DNA of 64,000 nucleotides from Pseudoalteromonas sp. N1230-9 (GTDB lineage Bacteria; Pseudomonadota; Gammaproteobacteria; Enterobacterales; Alteromonadaceae): assembly GCF_032716425.1 (NCBI RefSeq), contig NZ_CP090419.1:2916001-2980000 (forward strand). The letters run 5' to 3'. Below are positions 57,919 to 63,999 of the stretch, piece after piece. The notes beneath the pieces are model-generated. The model was not told the DNA's origin. It saw only the letters and a program-made list of their open reading frames with translations, and searched no databases. The stretch's first letter is position 1. Each line of letters begins with the position of its first letter. Both the position numbers and the translations under genes were made by a program.

Positions 57919-57943
57919 GGGTCAAGTTAGCTTTGCTTGACCC
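57919..57943. repeat. hairpin at the end of convergent genes
   Basis: Perfect 8-bp stem GGGTCAAG (57919-57926) / CTTGACCC (57936-57943). It includes the last codons of the third membrane paralogue and lies just after the Wzi-like stop. It has no T run, so the terminator role is uncertain. Confidence 0.5.
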
Positions 57944-58461
57944 CGACCCCATCTATACAACTTAACAAACCCCAGAAAGTCTTTGTTACATAAAAGCGCA
58001 ATTATCATCATTATATCCATCGTATTAACTGTCACGGTGTACACATCCCAAAACCACCAATGACCAGTAAAGTGGGCGTAGTTGGTGTCGTAGTACATTG
58101 CCAGAAACAATAAAATATTCACCGAGAGTCCTATAAAAATATATAATTTTGCAGGAACCTCATTTAAGCTTTTTTTACAGGTAACAAACCAAATGAAAGA
58201 CAACATAATTAAGTCTGACGCAGCCCAAATTAAATATGCAAGTGTCGTATTGAGGATGTTGTAGCCTAAAGTAGCGTTAAGGAGTGGATCACTAACCATA
58301 TAAGATAAAAACATTGCCAATGCTATCCACATCACCGTTTTATCTCCACCCCCTACCGATGAAGACTTTTTTACCATGTTGTACAAAAAGGCCATCAAAA
58401 AGCCCCACATGATAAAAGTGGCGAGATACACACCTAAGTATTCTTGGAGATATTCAAGCAT
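57922..58461 (-). CDS. multi-pass membrane protein, third tandem paralogue
   Basis: A 179-residue integral membrane protein with about five to six hydrophobic helices and no recognised family. It shares with the two genes upstream the N-terminal WGFLMAF-x-x-N block (W19-N28) and a C-terminal block with W-x-x-Y, V-N-x-x-D-I-x-M-I-x-A-L-L and NKDFL (about 135-165). It starts 11 bases after the stop of the second paralogue. A Ser/Gly-rich cytoplasmic-like loop (KKSSSVGGGDK) follows the first helix. Function is unknown; the conserved Asn and Asp within helices could bind a ligand or ion. Confidence 0.75.
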   Translation of the reverse strand: MLEYLQEYLGVYLATFIMWGFLMAFLYNMVKKSSSVGGGDKTVMWIALAMFLSYMVSDPLLNATLGYNILNTTLAYLIWAASDLIMLSFIWFVTCKKSLNEVPAKLYIFIGLSVNILLFLAMYYDTNYAHFTGHWWFWDVYTVTVNTMDIMMIIALLCNKDFLGFVKLYRWGRGQAKLT

Positions 58462-58472
58462 ACAATAAACCT

Positions 58473-58964
58473 CTAGCAGGCTTTGGCTTTAATATGACTA
58501 ACAAGTGCTCCAAGCTTTAAGAAATCTTTGTTCAATAATAAAGCTAAGATCATCATTATATCGATACTATTTACGCCAAGAGAGTATATTGTCCACAATA
58601 GCCATGGGGTTGTATTATCGTATACAAAAATATCAATGTAGATTGAGAGCATGAGAAATGAGTTCAGAAGTAAACCTATTAAAATATAAATTGCCGCATA
58701 AAAAATAGGATGCTGTTTCAGCTTCAACCAGGCAACAATAATAATAATCGTTACCAAATCATAGTATAACCAGTTCAAATAATGAAAAGAAGATAACTCT
58801 AAAACACCACTCAAAAAGTATGAGAGCATCATAATAAAAGCTAAAATTAAAGGACGACGATCATTCTTATTGATACTCATAGCAAGGTTGAAGAGAAAAG
58901 CCATTAAAAAGCCCCACTCTATAAACGTACCAATTAAACCACCTAGGTAGGCATTTATATACAT
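58473..58964 (-). CDS. multi-pass membrane protein, second tandem paralogue
   Basis: A 163-residue protein with the same plan as its neighbours: WGFLMAF-x-x-N at 17-26, hydrophobic helices, a Y-x-D-x-x-x-Y-D-N-T-T-P-W turn and the closing WTIYSLGVNSIDIMMILALL, then NKDFLKLG. It is 9 bases after the first paralogue's stop and 11 before the third gene. Levels of divergence among the three suggest old duplications kept for distinct roles, for example subunits of one complex. No enzyme motif is visible. Confidence 0.75.
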   Translation of the reverse strand: MYINAYLGGLIGTFIEWGFLMAFLFNLAMSINKNDRRPLILAFIMMLSYFLSGVLELSSFHYLNWLYYDLVTIIIIVAWLKLKQHPIFYAAIYILIGLLLNSFLMLSIYIDIFVYDNTTPWLLWTIYSLGVNSIDIMMILALLLNKDFLKLGALVSHIKAKAC

Positions 58965-58973
58965 CTGCTATTT

Positions 58974-59501
58974 TCAAGCTAATTTTTTATTTTTAAAAGA
59001 ATGGCGAATTAACTTTTTCAACTTATTCAGTCCAAGGATGTCTCGGTCGACAATTAATGCCACTATCATGGTGAAGTCTACGACATTAACACCTAGCGAA
59101 TAGATATCCCACAAGATCCAGTGTGTTGTATTTTTATACACTTGAACATCTAAATAAACAGACAAAAACAGAATAGTATTAATGATTAAACCAAAAACTA
59201 AATAGCTAAAGGAAGGAGTTGTACGTTTTACTACAAGGAATGCAAGAATTAAGAAGACTAAAGTGGCTATATCGTACAATGCCCACTCAAGAAAGGTTAC
59301 TGCAGTATAGGAGAGCCAGCTAAAAAAATAATCTCCAGCGATATAGGAGACCATCATTATAAATGAACTTAAGAGCAAAGTGGTTTTTCGTTTATTTTCA
59401 TTTACTGCGTAGACAAAAATATTAAAAAAAAATGCCATTAAAAATCCCCAAGCACTCATAGCTGAAAGGGAGAAAAAACCAAGTTGCTCAGTAAAAAACA
59501 T
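58974..59501 (-). CDS. multi-pass membrane protein, first tandem paralogue
   Basis: A 175-residue protein with the WGFLMAF-x-x-N block at 18-27, about six hydrophobic helices, a Y-x-D-x-x-x-Y-K-N-T-T-H-W turn and the closing WDIYSLGVNVVDFTMIVALI, then DRDILGL and a basic tail (KKLIRHSFKNKK). It follows the 68-aa gene by seven bases and leads the three paralogues. The basic tail suggests an inside C-terminus. Family and role are unknown. Confidence 0.75.
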   Translation of the reverse strand: MFFTEQLGFFSLSAMSAWGFLMAFFFNIFVYAVNENKRKTTLLLSSFIMMVSYIAGDYFFSWLSYTAVTFLEWALYDIATLVFLILAFLVVKRTTPSFSYLVFGLIINTILFLSVYLDVQVYKNTTHWILWDIYSLGVNVVDFTMIVALIVDRDILGLNKLKKLIRHSFKNKKLA

Positions 59502-59508
59502 TCAGTAC

Positions 59509-59715
59509 CTATTGCTCTTTCTTACTTGGTGGGAACATAGCACCACCACCGCGCTGAAGCTCTGCATCACCCGATAGTGACAGTGCTTGACTAGATAAAG
59601 TTACTGTATCAGATTGTAAGGTTTTATTACTAGTAGTTTGTTCTAGTGCAGGCTTTGTTTGTTGCATTTGGCTGTAAGCTTGCATCTGTAATTGGCTATT
59701 ATTTGAAATTTGCAT
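59509..59715 (-). CDS. small soluble protein heading the membrane operon
   Basis: A 68-residue Gln/Ser-rich protein: MQISNNSQLQMQAYSQMQQT at the start, then a SDTVTLSSQALSLSGDAELQ segment and a Gly-rich RGGGAMFPPSKKEQ tail. It has no signal, membrane helix or Cys. It is the first gene of the four-gene unit, seven bases before the first membrane paralogue. The TVTLSSQALSLS pattern recalls short proteins near motility or envelope genes in marine bacteria, but no family is assigned. Confidence 0.65.
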   Translation of the reverse strand: MQISNNSQLQMQAYSQMQQTKPALEQTTSNKTLQSDTVTLSSQALSLSGDAELQRGGGAMFPPSKKEQ

Positions 59716-59904
59716 GATTTAAATCCTTTAAGTTTAAATTGTAGTTAACGTGTGACGAATCACAAACGTACTCAGCGCTCTCGTTTTATTGACGCTTTCT
59801 GTACATTTTTGCAGCATTTTTGCTACATATCAAACTAAGCAACTAACGATCCAACTTTTCGCTTAAACAGATCTTTTTGATCAACTCAGCAAATTTCAGG
59901 CATA

Positions 59905-59935
59905 AAAAAACGCACAGGGGTAACCGTACGTTTTT
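59905..59935 (-). terminator. terminator of the arginine cluster
   Basis: On minus AAAACGTACGG and CCTGTGCGTTTT pair with wobble positions, ending in a T7 run, 15 bases after the NAGS-domain stop. It marks the end of the arg operon and supports the NAGS frame being part of it. Confidence 0.75.
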
Positions 59936-59949
59936 ACTATCCAGGGAAA

Positions 59950-60450
59950 TTAAGCTACGTTTTTACACGGGATCACCGCATTCTCACGAGGCCTTAAAAT
60001 AAATTCCATTGCGACTTCATCGCAATTGTCTTTGCGAAGGCAAAGCTCACAATCTTTCATGACTTTTTCCGGTAAGCTATCTTTACTGCAACAGCTGAAG
60101 CCTTGTTTTTTAAAAAAATCTGGCACGCGCGTTAATACAATGACACGGCTAAGCGCCAACTTTTTGGCTTTAACTAATAAGTGCTCAACTAATTGCCTGC
60201 CTTGGCCTTTGATACTCATCTTTGGATCAATCCCTAAAGATCGGATCTCTGCAAGTCCTGTATCGTAAATATACAATGAGGCGCAGCCTGCAACCTTGTC
60301 TGCAACCTCCGTGACTGCAAATTCATTGATTGAATGAATCATGTCACTTTTAGCGCGAGGTAAGTTCTCACCATTCATTGCCCAGTATTGAATTAGCTGA
60401 GCAATGCTCTCAACGTCATTTAAATTTGCATCACGTACTTTTATTTGCCG
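59950..60450 (-). CDS. argA: N-acetylglutamate synthase domain of ArgH(A), in the -1 frame after argH
   Basis: A GNAT domain that in vibrios and relatives is fused to ArgH as ArgH(A), making N-acetylglutamate, the first step of arginine synthesis. The domain reads from CGG at 60450 ([20 protein letters not shown]), through [20 protein letters not shown] with the acetyl-CoA loop, to [12 protein letters not shown]. Its first ATG is only at 60378, inside the domain, with no ribosome site; starting there would lose about 24 residues including the first strand. Joining at the A9C tract gives a 621-residue fusion, close to known ArgH(A) lengths. It may therefore be made by -1 frameshift, or the frame is broken. 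Confidence 0.75.
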
Positions 60451-61814
60451 TTTTTTTTTGCATATTTAATTGCACTAGAGACTTGCTCAACAGAGGTGCC
60501 ACCTAATGCCTGACGTGCTTTTATACATGCGTCTATTTCTAATACAGGATAGACATCTGACTCGAAAATGCTATGCACAGATTTAAATTGTTCTAAACTT
60601 AAATCTTCTAAGTTATTCCCTTTAGAAATAGCCATTTGCACTAAGGTACCAACAATATGGTGCCCTTCTCTAAAGGGGATACCTTTAGCCACTAAATAGT
60701 CAGCAAGCTCAGTCGCATTTGAGTGACCGCCTTTTGCAGCAGCAAGGGTTTTATCTGCATTAACTTTAATACCTTTGATGCACGCTTGCGCCATATGAAT
60801 ACACGCAAGCCACGTTGGCATCGCATCAAATAAGCCTTCTTTGTCCTCTTGCATATCTTTATTGTAAGCAAGCGGCAGTGCTTTAAGTGTCATCATCATG
60901 GCGCTAAATGCACCAAATACACGCCCCGTTTTACCACGGATTAACTCAAGTGCATCTGGATTTTTCTTTTGCGGCATTAATGATGAGCCTGATGTTACCC
61001 CATCAGACAGCTCTATAAAGCCTGCTTCGCCTGAGTTATAAAAAATCAGATCTTCGGCCATACGCGACAAATGAATCATTGAAATTGACGCGCAGCTTAA
61101 TAGCTCAACCACAAAGTCACGGTCAGATACAGCATCTAAACTGTTACGTGTTGCTGCGGTAAAACCTAACCCTTCGGCAAGAGTTTGCCTATCTATTGGG
61201 TACGCCGTTCCAGCTAAAGCACCGCTACCGAGTGGGCAATAATTCATACGATTTTTGGCATCGGTTAAACGGCTTTCATCACGCTCAAGCATTTCAACAT
61301 AGGCCATACACCAATGACTAAATAACACGGGTTGTGCACGCTGTAAGTGTGTGTAACCCGGTAAAATAGTACCAAGTTCACGCTCAGCTAGGGCAATAAA
61401 CTCACCTTTGAGCTCTGCAATTGCTTCAAGAATATGCTCGGCAGTATCACGACACCATAAACGGAAATCTGTCGCTACTTGGTCATTACGACTACGACCC
61501 GTATGAAGCTTTTTAGCAAGGTCGCCCACTTTATCAATCAGTGCTGACTCAACATAAGAATGAATGTCTTCATGCCCTGCTCCAGCCACTGCTTGTGGAT
61601 TTGCTTTTACTTCATCTAACAGCTTATTCAGTGCTGCAACGAGGTCATCATACTCTTGCTGATTTAACACATTAACCTGCTTAAGCGCTCCCGCCCAAGC
61701 AACCGAACCAATAATGTCTTGCTCTGCAAGTTGATAATCAAAAGGAAGAGAATCGTTAAATTGCTTAAACGCTTCATCTGGCCCCGTAGAAAAACGTCCG
61801 CCCCATAATGCCAT
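60441..61814 (-). CDS. argH: argininosuccinate lyase (ArgH part of ArgH(A))
   Basis: ArgH splits argininosuccinate to arginine and fumarate. The 457-residue product is complete as a lyase: [20 protein letters not shown] at the start, [13 protein letters not shown] near 105, [12 protein letters not shown] near 155 and the signature [12 protein letters not shown] near 280. It ends shortly after the A9C tract (60459-60450) at a TAA (60443-60441). In Vibrio-type operons the lyase continues into an N-acetylglutamate synthase domain; here that domain follows in the -1 frame. It is preceded by argG with 52 bases between. Confidence 0.96.
60450..60459 (-). promoter_or_regulatory. A9C slippery tract, candidate -1 frameshift site
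   Basis: On minus, argH codons GCA-AAA-AAA-AAC contain A-AAA-AAC in the right phase for tandem slippage by -1. After a slip the next codon is CGG, leading into the NAGS domain. Nine consecutive A can also cause transcriptional slippage. No clear upstream Shine-Dalgarno-like stimulator or downstream hairpin was seen. Confidence 0.6.
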
Positions 61815-61866: not shown

Positions 61867-63069
61867 TTACTTTTTCGTTAGTGCTGAGATTCTGCTAGAT
61901 AGCGAGAATAAACGAATGAAGCCTTCTGCATGTGATTGGTCATATACATCATCTTCGCCGAAGGTTGCGAAATCTTCACTGTATAAGCTATTCGGTGATT
62001 TTTTCTGTACCGCAGTGACTTGACCTTTATAAAGCTTAAGCACCACTTCACCAGTTGCGAGTTTAGACAGAGATTCAGCCCCTGCTAGAATCGAATCTTT
62101 CAATGGTGTAAACCAACGGCCGTCATAGACAAGGTGTGAAAACTCACCACCCAGTACTTCTTTCCATTTACGGCTTGATTTATCGAGCACGAGTTCATCA
62201 ACCGCTTGTAATGCGGCCATGATCACTGTGCCCCCTGGTGTTTCGTAACAACCACGCGATTTCATGCCAACTAAACGATTTTCGACGATATCAACACGAC
62301 CCACACCGTGTGGCGCAGCAATGTCATTTAATTTAACTAAACAGTCATAAGGTTTAAGCGTCTCACCATTTACCGCAACCACTTCACCTTCAACAACATT
62401 TAATGTCACGTATTCAGGTTCGTTTGGTGCTTGCTCTGGCGAGTTAGTCCAGGTCCACACTTGCTCACTTGGTTGGCACCATGGATCTTCAAGCTCACCA
62501 CCTTCGTGTGAAATGTGCCACGCATTAGCATCACGGCTATAAATTTTTGTAGCAGACGCTGAACACGGAATATTACGCTCAGCCAAGTAATCAAGTAGTG
62601 ATTCACGGCTTGATAAATCCCACTCACGCCACGGTGCGATTACTTTTAGATCTGGTGCAAGGGCTGCGAAACATGACTCAAAACGCACCTGATCGTTACC
62701 TTTACCAGTACAACCATGCGAAAGTGCATCAGCACCTACTTTACGGGCAATCTCTACTTGGGCTTTTGCAATGATTGGGCGCGCCATAGACGTACCGAGT
62801 AAATAAGTGCCTTCGTAAATAGAACCCGTTTTTAAGGTTGGATAAATATAGTCACTGACCATTTCGTCTTTTAAGTCAACCACATAACATTCAGATGCGC
62901 CTGAAGCGATTGCTTTTTCTTCTACGCCTTCAAGCTCTTCAGCGCCTTGACCTACATCAGCAACGAATGCGATAACTTCACAGCCGTAGTTTTCTTTTAA
63001 CCATGGCACGATTGCCGATGTATCTAGACCACCAGAATAGGCTAATACGACTTTTTTGATTGAACTCAT
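61867..63069 (-). CDS. argG: argininosuccinate synthase
   Basis: ArgG joins citrulline and aspartate with ATP. The 400-residue protein has the PP-loop [17 protein letters not shown] at the N-terminus, the [13 protein letters not shown] segment near 120-130 and later [20 protein letters not shown], all typical of the family. It starts nine bases after the argF stop and lies 52 bases before argH, so the three form one transcript. Repression by ArgR is expected, but its site would lie beyond the window's right edge. Confidence 0.97.
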
Positions 63070-63078
63070 TGGTGTTCC

Positions 63079-63999
63079 TTAAACAAAATTTGGATTTAAT
63101 AATGTGACAAGCAGTGCGTTTTGCGCGTGCATACGGTTCTCTGCTTGTTGAATAATTTTTGATGCTGGGCCATCCATTACCTCAGAGGTAATTTCAAACT
63201 CACGATGAGCCGGCTGGCAATGCAACACAGTTTGTGCACCAGTTTGCTCAAGTAGTGCTTGATTTAACTGATACGGCATATATTTAGCTTTCACCTGCTC
63301 AAGCGGTGTTTTATCGCCCATCGATACCCACGTATCAGCATAGACTGCATTTGCACCCACTGCCGCTTCAATTCTGTCGCTAACCATGACAGACGCTCCA
63401 TTCATCGCTGCAATTTGCTCTGCTTGCTTAAGAATTTGCGAATCTGGCGAACTGCCTTTCGGGCACACAGCGACAAAATCAGTCCCTAAAGTAGCAGCTA
63501 ATAACATTAGAGAGTGTGTGACATTGTTACCTTCACCTAAGTATGCAAGCTTTAGTTTGCTGACATCACCATGCACTTCTTGCAGCGTTAAAAAGTCAGC
63601 GAGTGCTTGGCATGGGTGGTATAAATCGCACAGACTATTCACCACAGGGACTGACGAAAACTCAGCAAGGGTGGTTAATGTTTTATGTGCAAATACGCGA
63701 GCAACAATGCCATCAGCCCAAGTTGAAATATTTAAAGCAAAATCTTTTACTGACTCACGCGCACCCATTGCGCCATTTTGTGAATCTAAATAAACAGCAT
63801 GACCACCCAATTTATTAATACCAATATCAAATGATAAACGGGTACGTAAGCTTGGTTTTTCGAATAAGGTAACCACTGATTTACCCGCTAAAGCTTGGCT
63901 AAAATCGACTGGGTTTGCTTTAATTTTTTGCGCTAAATCGAGTAATTTAAGCGCGCCTTTTTGGTCTAACTCAAGACCAGATAAAAAGTTAGTTAACAT
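63079..63999 (-). CDS. argF: ornithine carbamoyltransferase
   Basis: OTC makes citrulline from ornithine and carbamoyl phosphate. The 306-residue protein shows the carbamoyl phosphate loop as EKPSLRTRLSFD (residues about 50-61; E. coli has STRTR), the HPCQALADFLTL segment near 130 and the closing HCQPAHREFEI instead of the usual HCLP. These variants match alteromonad OTC proteins as I recall them; an N-acetylornithine specificity seems unlikely but is not excluded by eye. The ATG is at 63999, one base before the window end, so upstream signals are not visible. It heads argF-argG-argH(A). Confidence 0.92.
   Translation of the reverse strand: MLTNFLSGLELDQKGALKLLDLAQKIKANPVDFSQALAGKSVVTLFEKPSLRTRLSFDIGINKLGGHAVYLDSQNGAMGARESVKDFALNISTWADGIVARVFAHKTLTTLAEFSSVPVVNSLCDLYHPCQALADFLTLQEVHGDVSKLKLAYLGEGNNVTHSLMLLAATLGTDFVAVCPKGSSPDSQILKQAEQIAAMNGASVMVSDRIEAAVGANAVYADTWVSMGDKTPLEQVKAKYMPYQLNQALLEQTGAQTVLHCQPAHREFEITSEVMDGPASKIIQQAENRMHAQNALLVTLLNPNFV

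Follow-up and report, generated by a model that had tools for sequence, protein, structure and literature searches.

The arg genes in the window (the whole 64,000-nucleotide stretch of Pseudoalteromonas sp. N1230-9 DNA that was analysed) all lie on the minus strand, with the genes for ornithine carbamoyltransferase (OTCase) and argininosuccinate synthase located upstream of argH, and an open frame for an N-acetylglutamate synthase (NAGS) domain beyond it. The features of the locus are the following:

63079..63999, minus strand: argF-type ornithine carbamoyltransferase gene, 306 aa (NF011380, 1e-158)
61867..63069, minus strand: argG, argininosuccinate synthase, 400 aa (NF001770, 3.5e-181)
60441..61814, minus strand: argH, argininosuccinate lyase, 457 aa (Lyase_1 and ASL_C2; NF008964 positions 1-455)
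60466..60468, minus strand: TAA closing the NAGS frame on its upstream side (sequence)
60451..60459, minus strand: run of nine A's (A9), then C (sequence; 79 of 88 orthologous junctions have a run of exactly nine)
59950..60465, minus strand: open -1 frame encoding an N-acetylglutamate synthase (GNAT) domain (PF00583; NF008964 positions 460-624)
59904..59930, minus strand: hairpin followed by seven T's past the NAGS stop, probable arg operon terminator (by eye)

The argH frame, which ends in ...KYAKKNGK with its TAA at 60443-60441, is read across the run as GCA AAA AAA AAC GGC AAA TAA. The NAGS frame, read there as AAA AAA AAA CGG CAA ATA AAA GTA CGT, adjoins argH without a gap, one base out of phase, and has its stop at 59952-59950. 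The split that the initial annotation had reported is real: the NAGS frame is open in the -1 phase from 60465 to that stop, the run at the junction (60459-60451) comprises exactly nine A's followed by C, and the argH frame holds the heptamer A_AAA_AAC there, the last two as annotated. Because of the TAA at 60466..60468, the NAGS frame cannot begin further up inside argH in the A9 sequence of the window.

Since both align along NF008964 (PRK12308, 624 aa), the argH half at positions 1-455 (E 7.7e-257) and the NAGS half at positions 460-624 (E 4.6e-70), argH and the NAGS frame each represent one half of a known fusion protein. The NAGS domain also matches solved structures, among them 5yo2 (E 6e-15), 5yge and 2r8v. 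This fusion, ArgH(A), occurs in Moritella, Vibrio and Pseudoalteromonas with the same two domains in the same order and in an arg gene cluster, whereas the window has two frames a one-base shift apart. The initial annotation had pointed to fused relatives in Vibrio and Moritella; the fusion family is indeed known, but the nearest fused relatives are found within the same genus.

A hairpin and T-run after the NAGS stop is also visible by eye in fused relatives, although a pattern scan did not flag the one at 59904..59930. Because this element comes after the NAGS stop and recurs in relatives, argH and the NAGS domain probably share one message. A separate NAGS promoter, which the initial annotation had counted as a contrary possibility, was rejected, the 1.05 kb scanned giving one weak match against 2.2 expected in shuffles.

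We searched 108 Pseudoalteromonas genomes with the NAGS domain and found ArgH and NAGS fused in 76, split in 12, and the domain absent from 20. The continuous frame of ~620 aa typical of ArgH(A) (PRK12308) is therefore present in all 76 of the fused genomes, and in the window it is replaced by two frames. In the 20 domain-less genomes only distant NAGS matches were obtained; argH was found, ending at 453-477 aa, and a search for the domain over 1.5 kb on each side of it gave two chance-level matches only. Eleven of the split genomes, the window's included, have nine A's at the frame junction, and one (G023) has eight (A8), which places NAGS in the third frame. Eight of the 12 are records of different isolates, and the set includes P. 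arabiensis JCM 17292, P. lipolytica UCD-48B, P. shioyasakiensis JCM 18891 and P. gelatinilytica NH153.

In a quick argH tree the 12 split genomes and G022, which has lost the domain, formed one clade (SH-aLRT 100), with the placement of G022 and G023 at its base unresolved, and a quick tree of the NAGS domain likewise put the 12 split genomes together (support 94). When 8000 candidate proteins were scored, no fused form sharing more than 89% identity with the window ArgH appeared among the 73 matches listed, and the split-type protein cluster P0001 (460 aa) had 201 members. These comparisons indicate that the split has one origin and has long been kept. Recent separate breaks in each genome are disfavoured: every one of the 12 domain-keeping members of the clade has NAGS out of frame, and the matches listed include no closely related fused protein. 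In the comparison of orthologous loci that the initial annotation had recommended, A9 with split frames is kept in 11 genomes of one clade within a genus in which 76 of 108 genomes are fused, and a mutation private to the window strain, one of the explanations it had offered, is excluded by the 12 split genomes in that clade, 8 of them from different isolates.

Among more distant loci, the argH of G282 (L220), a different member of the order, changes frame within its lyase portion, near residue 336, and not at the junction. G146 and two loci of family f3 had no ArgH match on the stretch examined, which for G368 is cut off by a contig end.

As the initial annotation had stated, the NAGS frame has no ATG, GTG or TTG before 60378, which is domain codon 21; the sole NCBI-listed possible start preceding the domain is ATA, and by eye alone no ribosome site is seen there. 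The same holds across the A9 genomes of the clade: in 11 of 11 the last upstream stop lies 2 to 9 codons ahead of the run, and from that stop to domain residue 1 there is no ATG, GTG, TTG, CTG, ATT or ATC, only ATA. The ATG at 60378 is confined to the window's own 3-genome group, and in the sister group of 8 genomes the first standard start is domain codon 33; G023, with its A8, does have an in-frame GTG. A start of its own with a ribosome site, as expected of a stand-alone NAGS, was thus found in none of the A9 genomes (the site again judged by eye). An independent start at 60378 was rejected, since the ATG occurs in only 3 of the 12 split genomes and the 20 codons that precede it are conserved.

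The NAGS domain has no internal stop in any of the 12 split genomes, and codon models gave a measure of the selection acting on it. In the fused groups omega for NAGS was 0.033 (A), 0.033 (B), 0.009 (C) and, from an unfinished run, 0.031 (D). In the split 8-genome P. lipolytica group it was 0.045, a value for which likelihood tests rejected omega = 1 (2dlnL 165.9) and found no difference from the fused 0.033 (p = 0.35). In the window's own 3-genome group omega was 0.226, and here both omega = 1 (p = 0.003) and 0.033 (p = 0.0005) were rejected. Joining the two A9 groups gave 0.064-0.065, again rejecting 1 (2dlnL 278) and 0.033 (p = 0.002), and all twelve split genomes gave 0.078; omega for ArgH in the same split groups was 0.015-0.017. 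Of 93 columns invariant across the 76 fused proteins, each split protein alters 0 or 1. Given this purifying selection and the invariant columns kept, the sequences indicate that the split genomes still make use of the NAGS domain, strictly in the 8-genome group and more loosely in the window's, where the same models indicate that selection is relaxed. For the first 20 domain codons, a sample of 20 codons only, omega was 0.001 when estimated from the 8-genome group, 0.074 with the two A9 groups combined and 0.039 over the full set of twelve split genomes, and this conservation implies that translation enters at or before the run.

Synonymous divergence between the two A9 groups (L001 versus L015) was 1.6-2.8 for NAGS against 0.55-0.64 for ArgH. 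The high value for NAGS was considered as a sign of decay and set aside, since ArgA dS in the two such between-group pairs computed was 1.2 and 1.5, which suggests that ArgH is the odd one; the low ArgH dS perhaps reflects recombination or gene transfer in argH.

The window genome also carries a classical ArgA (NF003641, 1.8e-198), and a search with it as query found ArgA in 33 of the 108 genomes: the 12 split, the 20 domain-less and one fused (G048). The other 75 fused genomes gave no ArgA match at E 1e-30, so that ArgA is present in 32 of 32 non-fused genomes versus 1 of 76 fused. ArgH(A) has been described previously, and the portion of that account consulted names Idiomarina loihiensis and P. 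haloplanktis as being without a classical NAGS (PMC1382215). In the 30 of 33 argA loci whose flanks were examined, the upstream flank resembled the window's in 13 and the downstream flank in 14 (query counted), and the loci with window-like flanks were those of the split genomes (L118 downstream only), G022 and G048. The last of these (L011 / L123), the sole fused genome of 76 with a classical argA, and one whose argA flanks are like those of the split clade, offers a possible look at the pre-split state.

The A9 run is itself conserved beyond the split clade and is more than a chance occurrence. The window genome has 25 exact runs of nine A or T, compared with 288 of length eight and 3 matches of length ten. 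When these 25 were sorted by a mechanical ORF test, no more than 7, argH included, were read as sense-strand A's in an ORF of at least 150 aa. At 88 argH-NAGS junctions in the genus the run is of nine A's in 79, eight in one, and five or fewer in eight, and the base that follows the nine A's is C in 68 loci and G in 11. Since A9 is conserved in the fused genomes too, the run was not made for the split. It stands in more than one phase there, as GCN or GTG followed by AAA AAA AAA in 53 of the 68 fused A9 loci and as GCA AAA AAA AAG or AAC in the remaining 15; where the preceding codon ends in A the last codon is not AAA, and the junction run is never ten. In the 53 loci none of the three Lys codons is ever AAG, and the preceding codon never ends in A, even though the base before the run changed at least 6 times on the tree. 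As background, 1 of 47 conserved Ala columns has no GCA and 3 of 15 conserved Lys columns have no AAG; on that count three of three would arise by chance at ~0.8%. A Poisson estimate from mean changes put the absence of AAG at 4e-5, both Lys tests being post hoc.

As a single control we used an A9 at a KKK site in another conserved ORF, presumably of a protease-like protein, whose first 330 aa had no NCBIfam match. Nine A's were kept at that site in 2 of 30 genomes, the 30 examined being drawn from 108 with a match, and elsewhere they were broken by AAG; matched by genome, the argH junction has A9 in 28 of the 29 control genomes having the junction. A second sense-A9 ORF, which we take to be FlgA-like, was found in 10 of 108 genomes and hence was not used. 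Of the 24 loci designated L196-L219, the 22 from outside Pseudoalteromonas (Idiomarina and relatives) all lack the run. At 68 of 68 fused A9 loci each of the two other frames meets a stop no more than 10 codons from the run, to which we give little weight as the background frequencies are high, at 72% and 57%.

Public protein records suggest further variation. The letters of P0001/P0074 and of P0075 imply A8 forms of the split lineages (read from protein, the DNA not having been seen), those of P0076 and P0078 look like A10 variants of fused lineages, and those of P0016 (Pseudoalteromonas sp. BSi20652) like an A8 variant of a fused lineage, the last three being either real or sequencing errors. 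Either the length of the run varies in nature or assemblies are prone to error there. In view of these A8- and A10-type variants the run is mutable as well, so that mutation, and not design, may account for part of the pattern, and the A8 genome and the A8-type proteins argue against a strictly tuned switch.

The account we put forward, tentatively and with a little less than even confidence, is that the window carries a split form of argH(A) derived from a fused ancestor, its NAGS domain being reached by polymerase slippage at the run. The ancestor would have had ArgH, a Lys-rich linker and NAGS in a single frame, as in the 76 fused genomes today; in one clade having a classical argA elsewhere, the A-run junction would have slipped out of frame and then become fixed, the fused NAGS having been made redundant by ArgA before the slip. 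Normal expression would yield free, complete ArgH, and the addition of one A by RNA polymerase on the nine-A run would give ten A's and put ArgH, linker and NAGS in frame, the product of the slipped transcript being a minor ArgH-NAGS fusion of the same length as in the fused relatives. Slippage is the simplest route to NAGS because the A9 genomes have no standard start for it and one extra A restores the frame; that it occurs, that it occurs at transcription and that it yields the fusion we infer from these sequences. The initial annotation had proposed free ArgH with a minor fusion made by ribosomal or transcriptional slippage, and for this the support is indirect, namely the purifying selection on the NAGS frame and the want of a standard start in 11 A9 genomes. 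Set against a single-insertion switch is the A8 of G023, which needs one A fewer or two more, and the A8 implied by the public proteins; also weighing against the account are the classical ArgA, which makes NAGS redundant, the near relative G022, which lost the domain, and the relaxed selection in the window's own group.

What has been published on slippage bears on both sides. According to three papers, slippage in bacteria takes place where nine A or T stand in a row, and it mostly inserts a single base (PMC1088944, PMC5009743, PMC5574713); in the first of these, nine A or T is the length at which many bacteria begin to show selection against slippage, and in the last, insertions in E. coli transcripts are mostly of single bases in A/T runs and rise with run length up to nine. 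The same genome-wide survey of E. coli and Buchnera transcripts reports no case of a transcription error bringing a reading frame back (PMC5574713). In PMC4256274, a split gene, tssM1, is rescued by slippage at an A11 run with a slipped product of about 20-25%, and in Yersinia tssM3 it is the short product that arises by slippage, a pair that parallels the split and fused states of argH-NAGS.

Other explanations would account for some of the same observations. Programmed -1 ribosomal frameshifting at A_AAA_AAC (or A_AAA_AAA) would make the fusion from the nine-A transcript; the heptamer is in frame in 11 of the 12 split genomes, the product would have the length of the fused relatives, and A-rich heptamers including A_AAA_AAC are in the predicted prokaryotic frameshift clusters of an extracted portion of PMC3711429. 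In E. coli, however, A_AAA_AAC shifts far less readily than A_AAA_AAG (PMC5009743), no Shine-Dalgarno-like element is seen by eye 10-14 nt upstream, downstream folding is modest (z -1.45 to -2.1 for 4 stretches from 3 genomes), and in G023 a -1 shift would not reach the NAGS domain. With a poorly shifty heptamer and no clear stimulators, polymerase slippage is more likely than programmed frameshifting, which we consider distinctly unlikely, and the dnaX-type mechanism of the initial annotation is the weaker part of its proposal. Rather unlikely, too, is translation of NAGS alone, from the ATA near the argH stop or from an ATG or GTG that comes into frame when the DNA or RNA run is of eight A's. 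With A8 the TATGC of the window group would give ATG CAA AAA AAA CGG in the NAGS frame (compare the predicted P0074, MQKKRQIKV...), the lipolytica group would gain a GTG (P0075; deduced from protein letters), G023 has its GTG already, and short stand-alone NAGS enzymes exist (PMC1382215, in part; PDB 5yo2); but in the 11 A9 genomes of 12 a stop 2 to 9 codons ahead of the run shuts the frame and leaves only ATA, and no Shine-Dalgarno sequence is seen by eye ahead of NAGS.

That the domain is a remnant heading for loss, redundant after ArgA, split at a mutation hot spot and without useful expression, we regard as unlikely. ArgA accompanies all 32 non-fused genomes, 20 genomes have lost the domain, one of them (G022) inside the split clade, the run varies in length (A8 in G023), and the window's own group is relaxed (omega 0.226), but neutrality is still rejected there (p = 0.003), and the 8-genome group retains an omega of 0.045, with 0-1 of the 93 invariant columns altered and no stop in 12 of 12 genomes. 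A sequencing or assembly error in a genome truly having ten A's, also raised by the initial annotation, is scarcely credible: homopolymers are error-prone, and P0016, 87% identical to the window ArgH, is recorded as 457 aa without the domain though its letters look to be of a fused lineage, but the same A9 is found in 11 genomes, eight of them different isolates, and among the 73 matches listed no fused protein exceeds 89% identity, versus a split-type cluster of 201 members; for the clade, therefore, we rejected it.

Polymerase slippage might also have a wider role. It is possible, though rather doubtful, that the nine-A run serves throughout the genus as a slippage site determining how much free ArgH is made relative to ArgH-NAGS, with selection keeping its length at nine in more than one coding phase and with the default flipped in the window's ArgA-bearing clade, where the fusion would arise by slippage. 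In most species, on this ratio-setting reading, the unslipped message would give the fusion and slippage would give free ArgH.

Several known systems invite comparison. Citrobacter rodentium tssM1 (A11 slippage, PMC4256274, in part) likewise has a poly-A run shortly before a premature stop and a functional C-terminal domain in the other frame, but the window run, a putative slippage site, is of nine A's and not eleven, and the product is a metabolic enzyme whose NAGS activity is redundant. Thermus dnaX (A9 slippage, PMC1088944, in part) has a sense-strand run of nine A's and long and short products; its unslipped product is the long one, as would be expected in fused Pseudoalteromonas, whereas that of the window is short. 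E. coli dnaX, a -1 ribosomal frameshift at A_AAA_AAG, shares an in-frame X_XXY_YYZ heptamer, but the window has A_AAA_AAC and no clear stimulators, and relatives also carry the run out of that phase. Short stand-alone NAGS proteins (Rv2747-type; PDB 5yo2) have a homologous GNAT domain (E 6e-15), but the A9 genomes have no standard start codon for theirs. A literature search for argH frameshifts in Pseudoalteromonas, slippage in argininosuccinate lyase and transcriptional slippage in Pseudoalteromonas, most subscription journals being outside its scope, found nothing, and the main text of the GeneTack paper (PMC3711429) mentions neither argH nor argininosuccinate.

If the slippage account is true, the stoichiometry of a core biosynthetic enzyme pair would be set by polymerase slippage, and the genus would offer a natural set of species with the default product reversed, in which cause and effect of recoding could be compared. 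The locus also lets a gene fusion be seen breaking up stepwise, from fused to split yet selected to lost, beside a redundant second enzyme. In A9 strains, routine gene calling can be expected to overlook the NAGS domain or cut it short.

Downstream of argH, three tandem minus-strand ORFs at 57922-59501 (179, 163 and 175 aa) resemble paralogous membrane proteins with a common WGFLMAF motif. Between them and the argH region, at 59509-59715 on the minus strand, a 68-aa frame too small for the ORF list, MQISNNSQLQMQ...FPPSKKEQ, was noted by eye.
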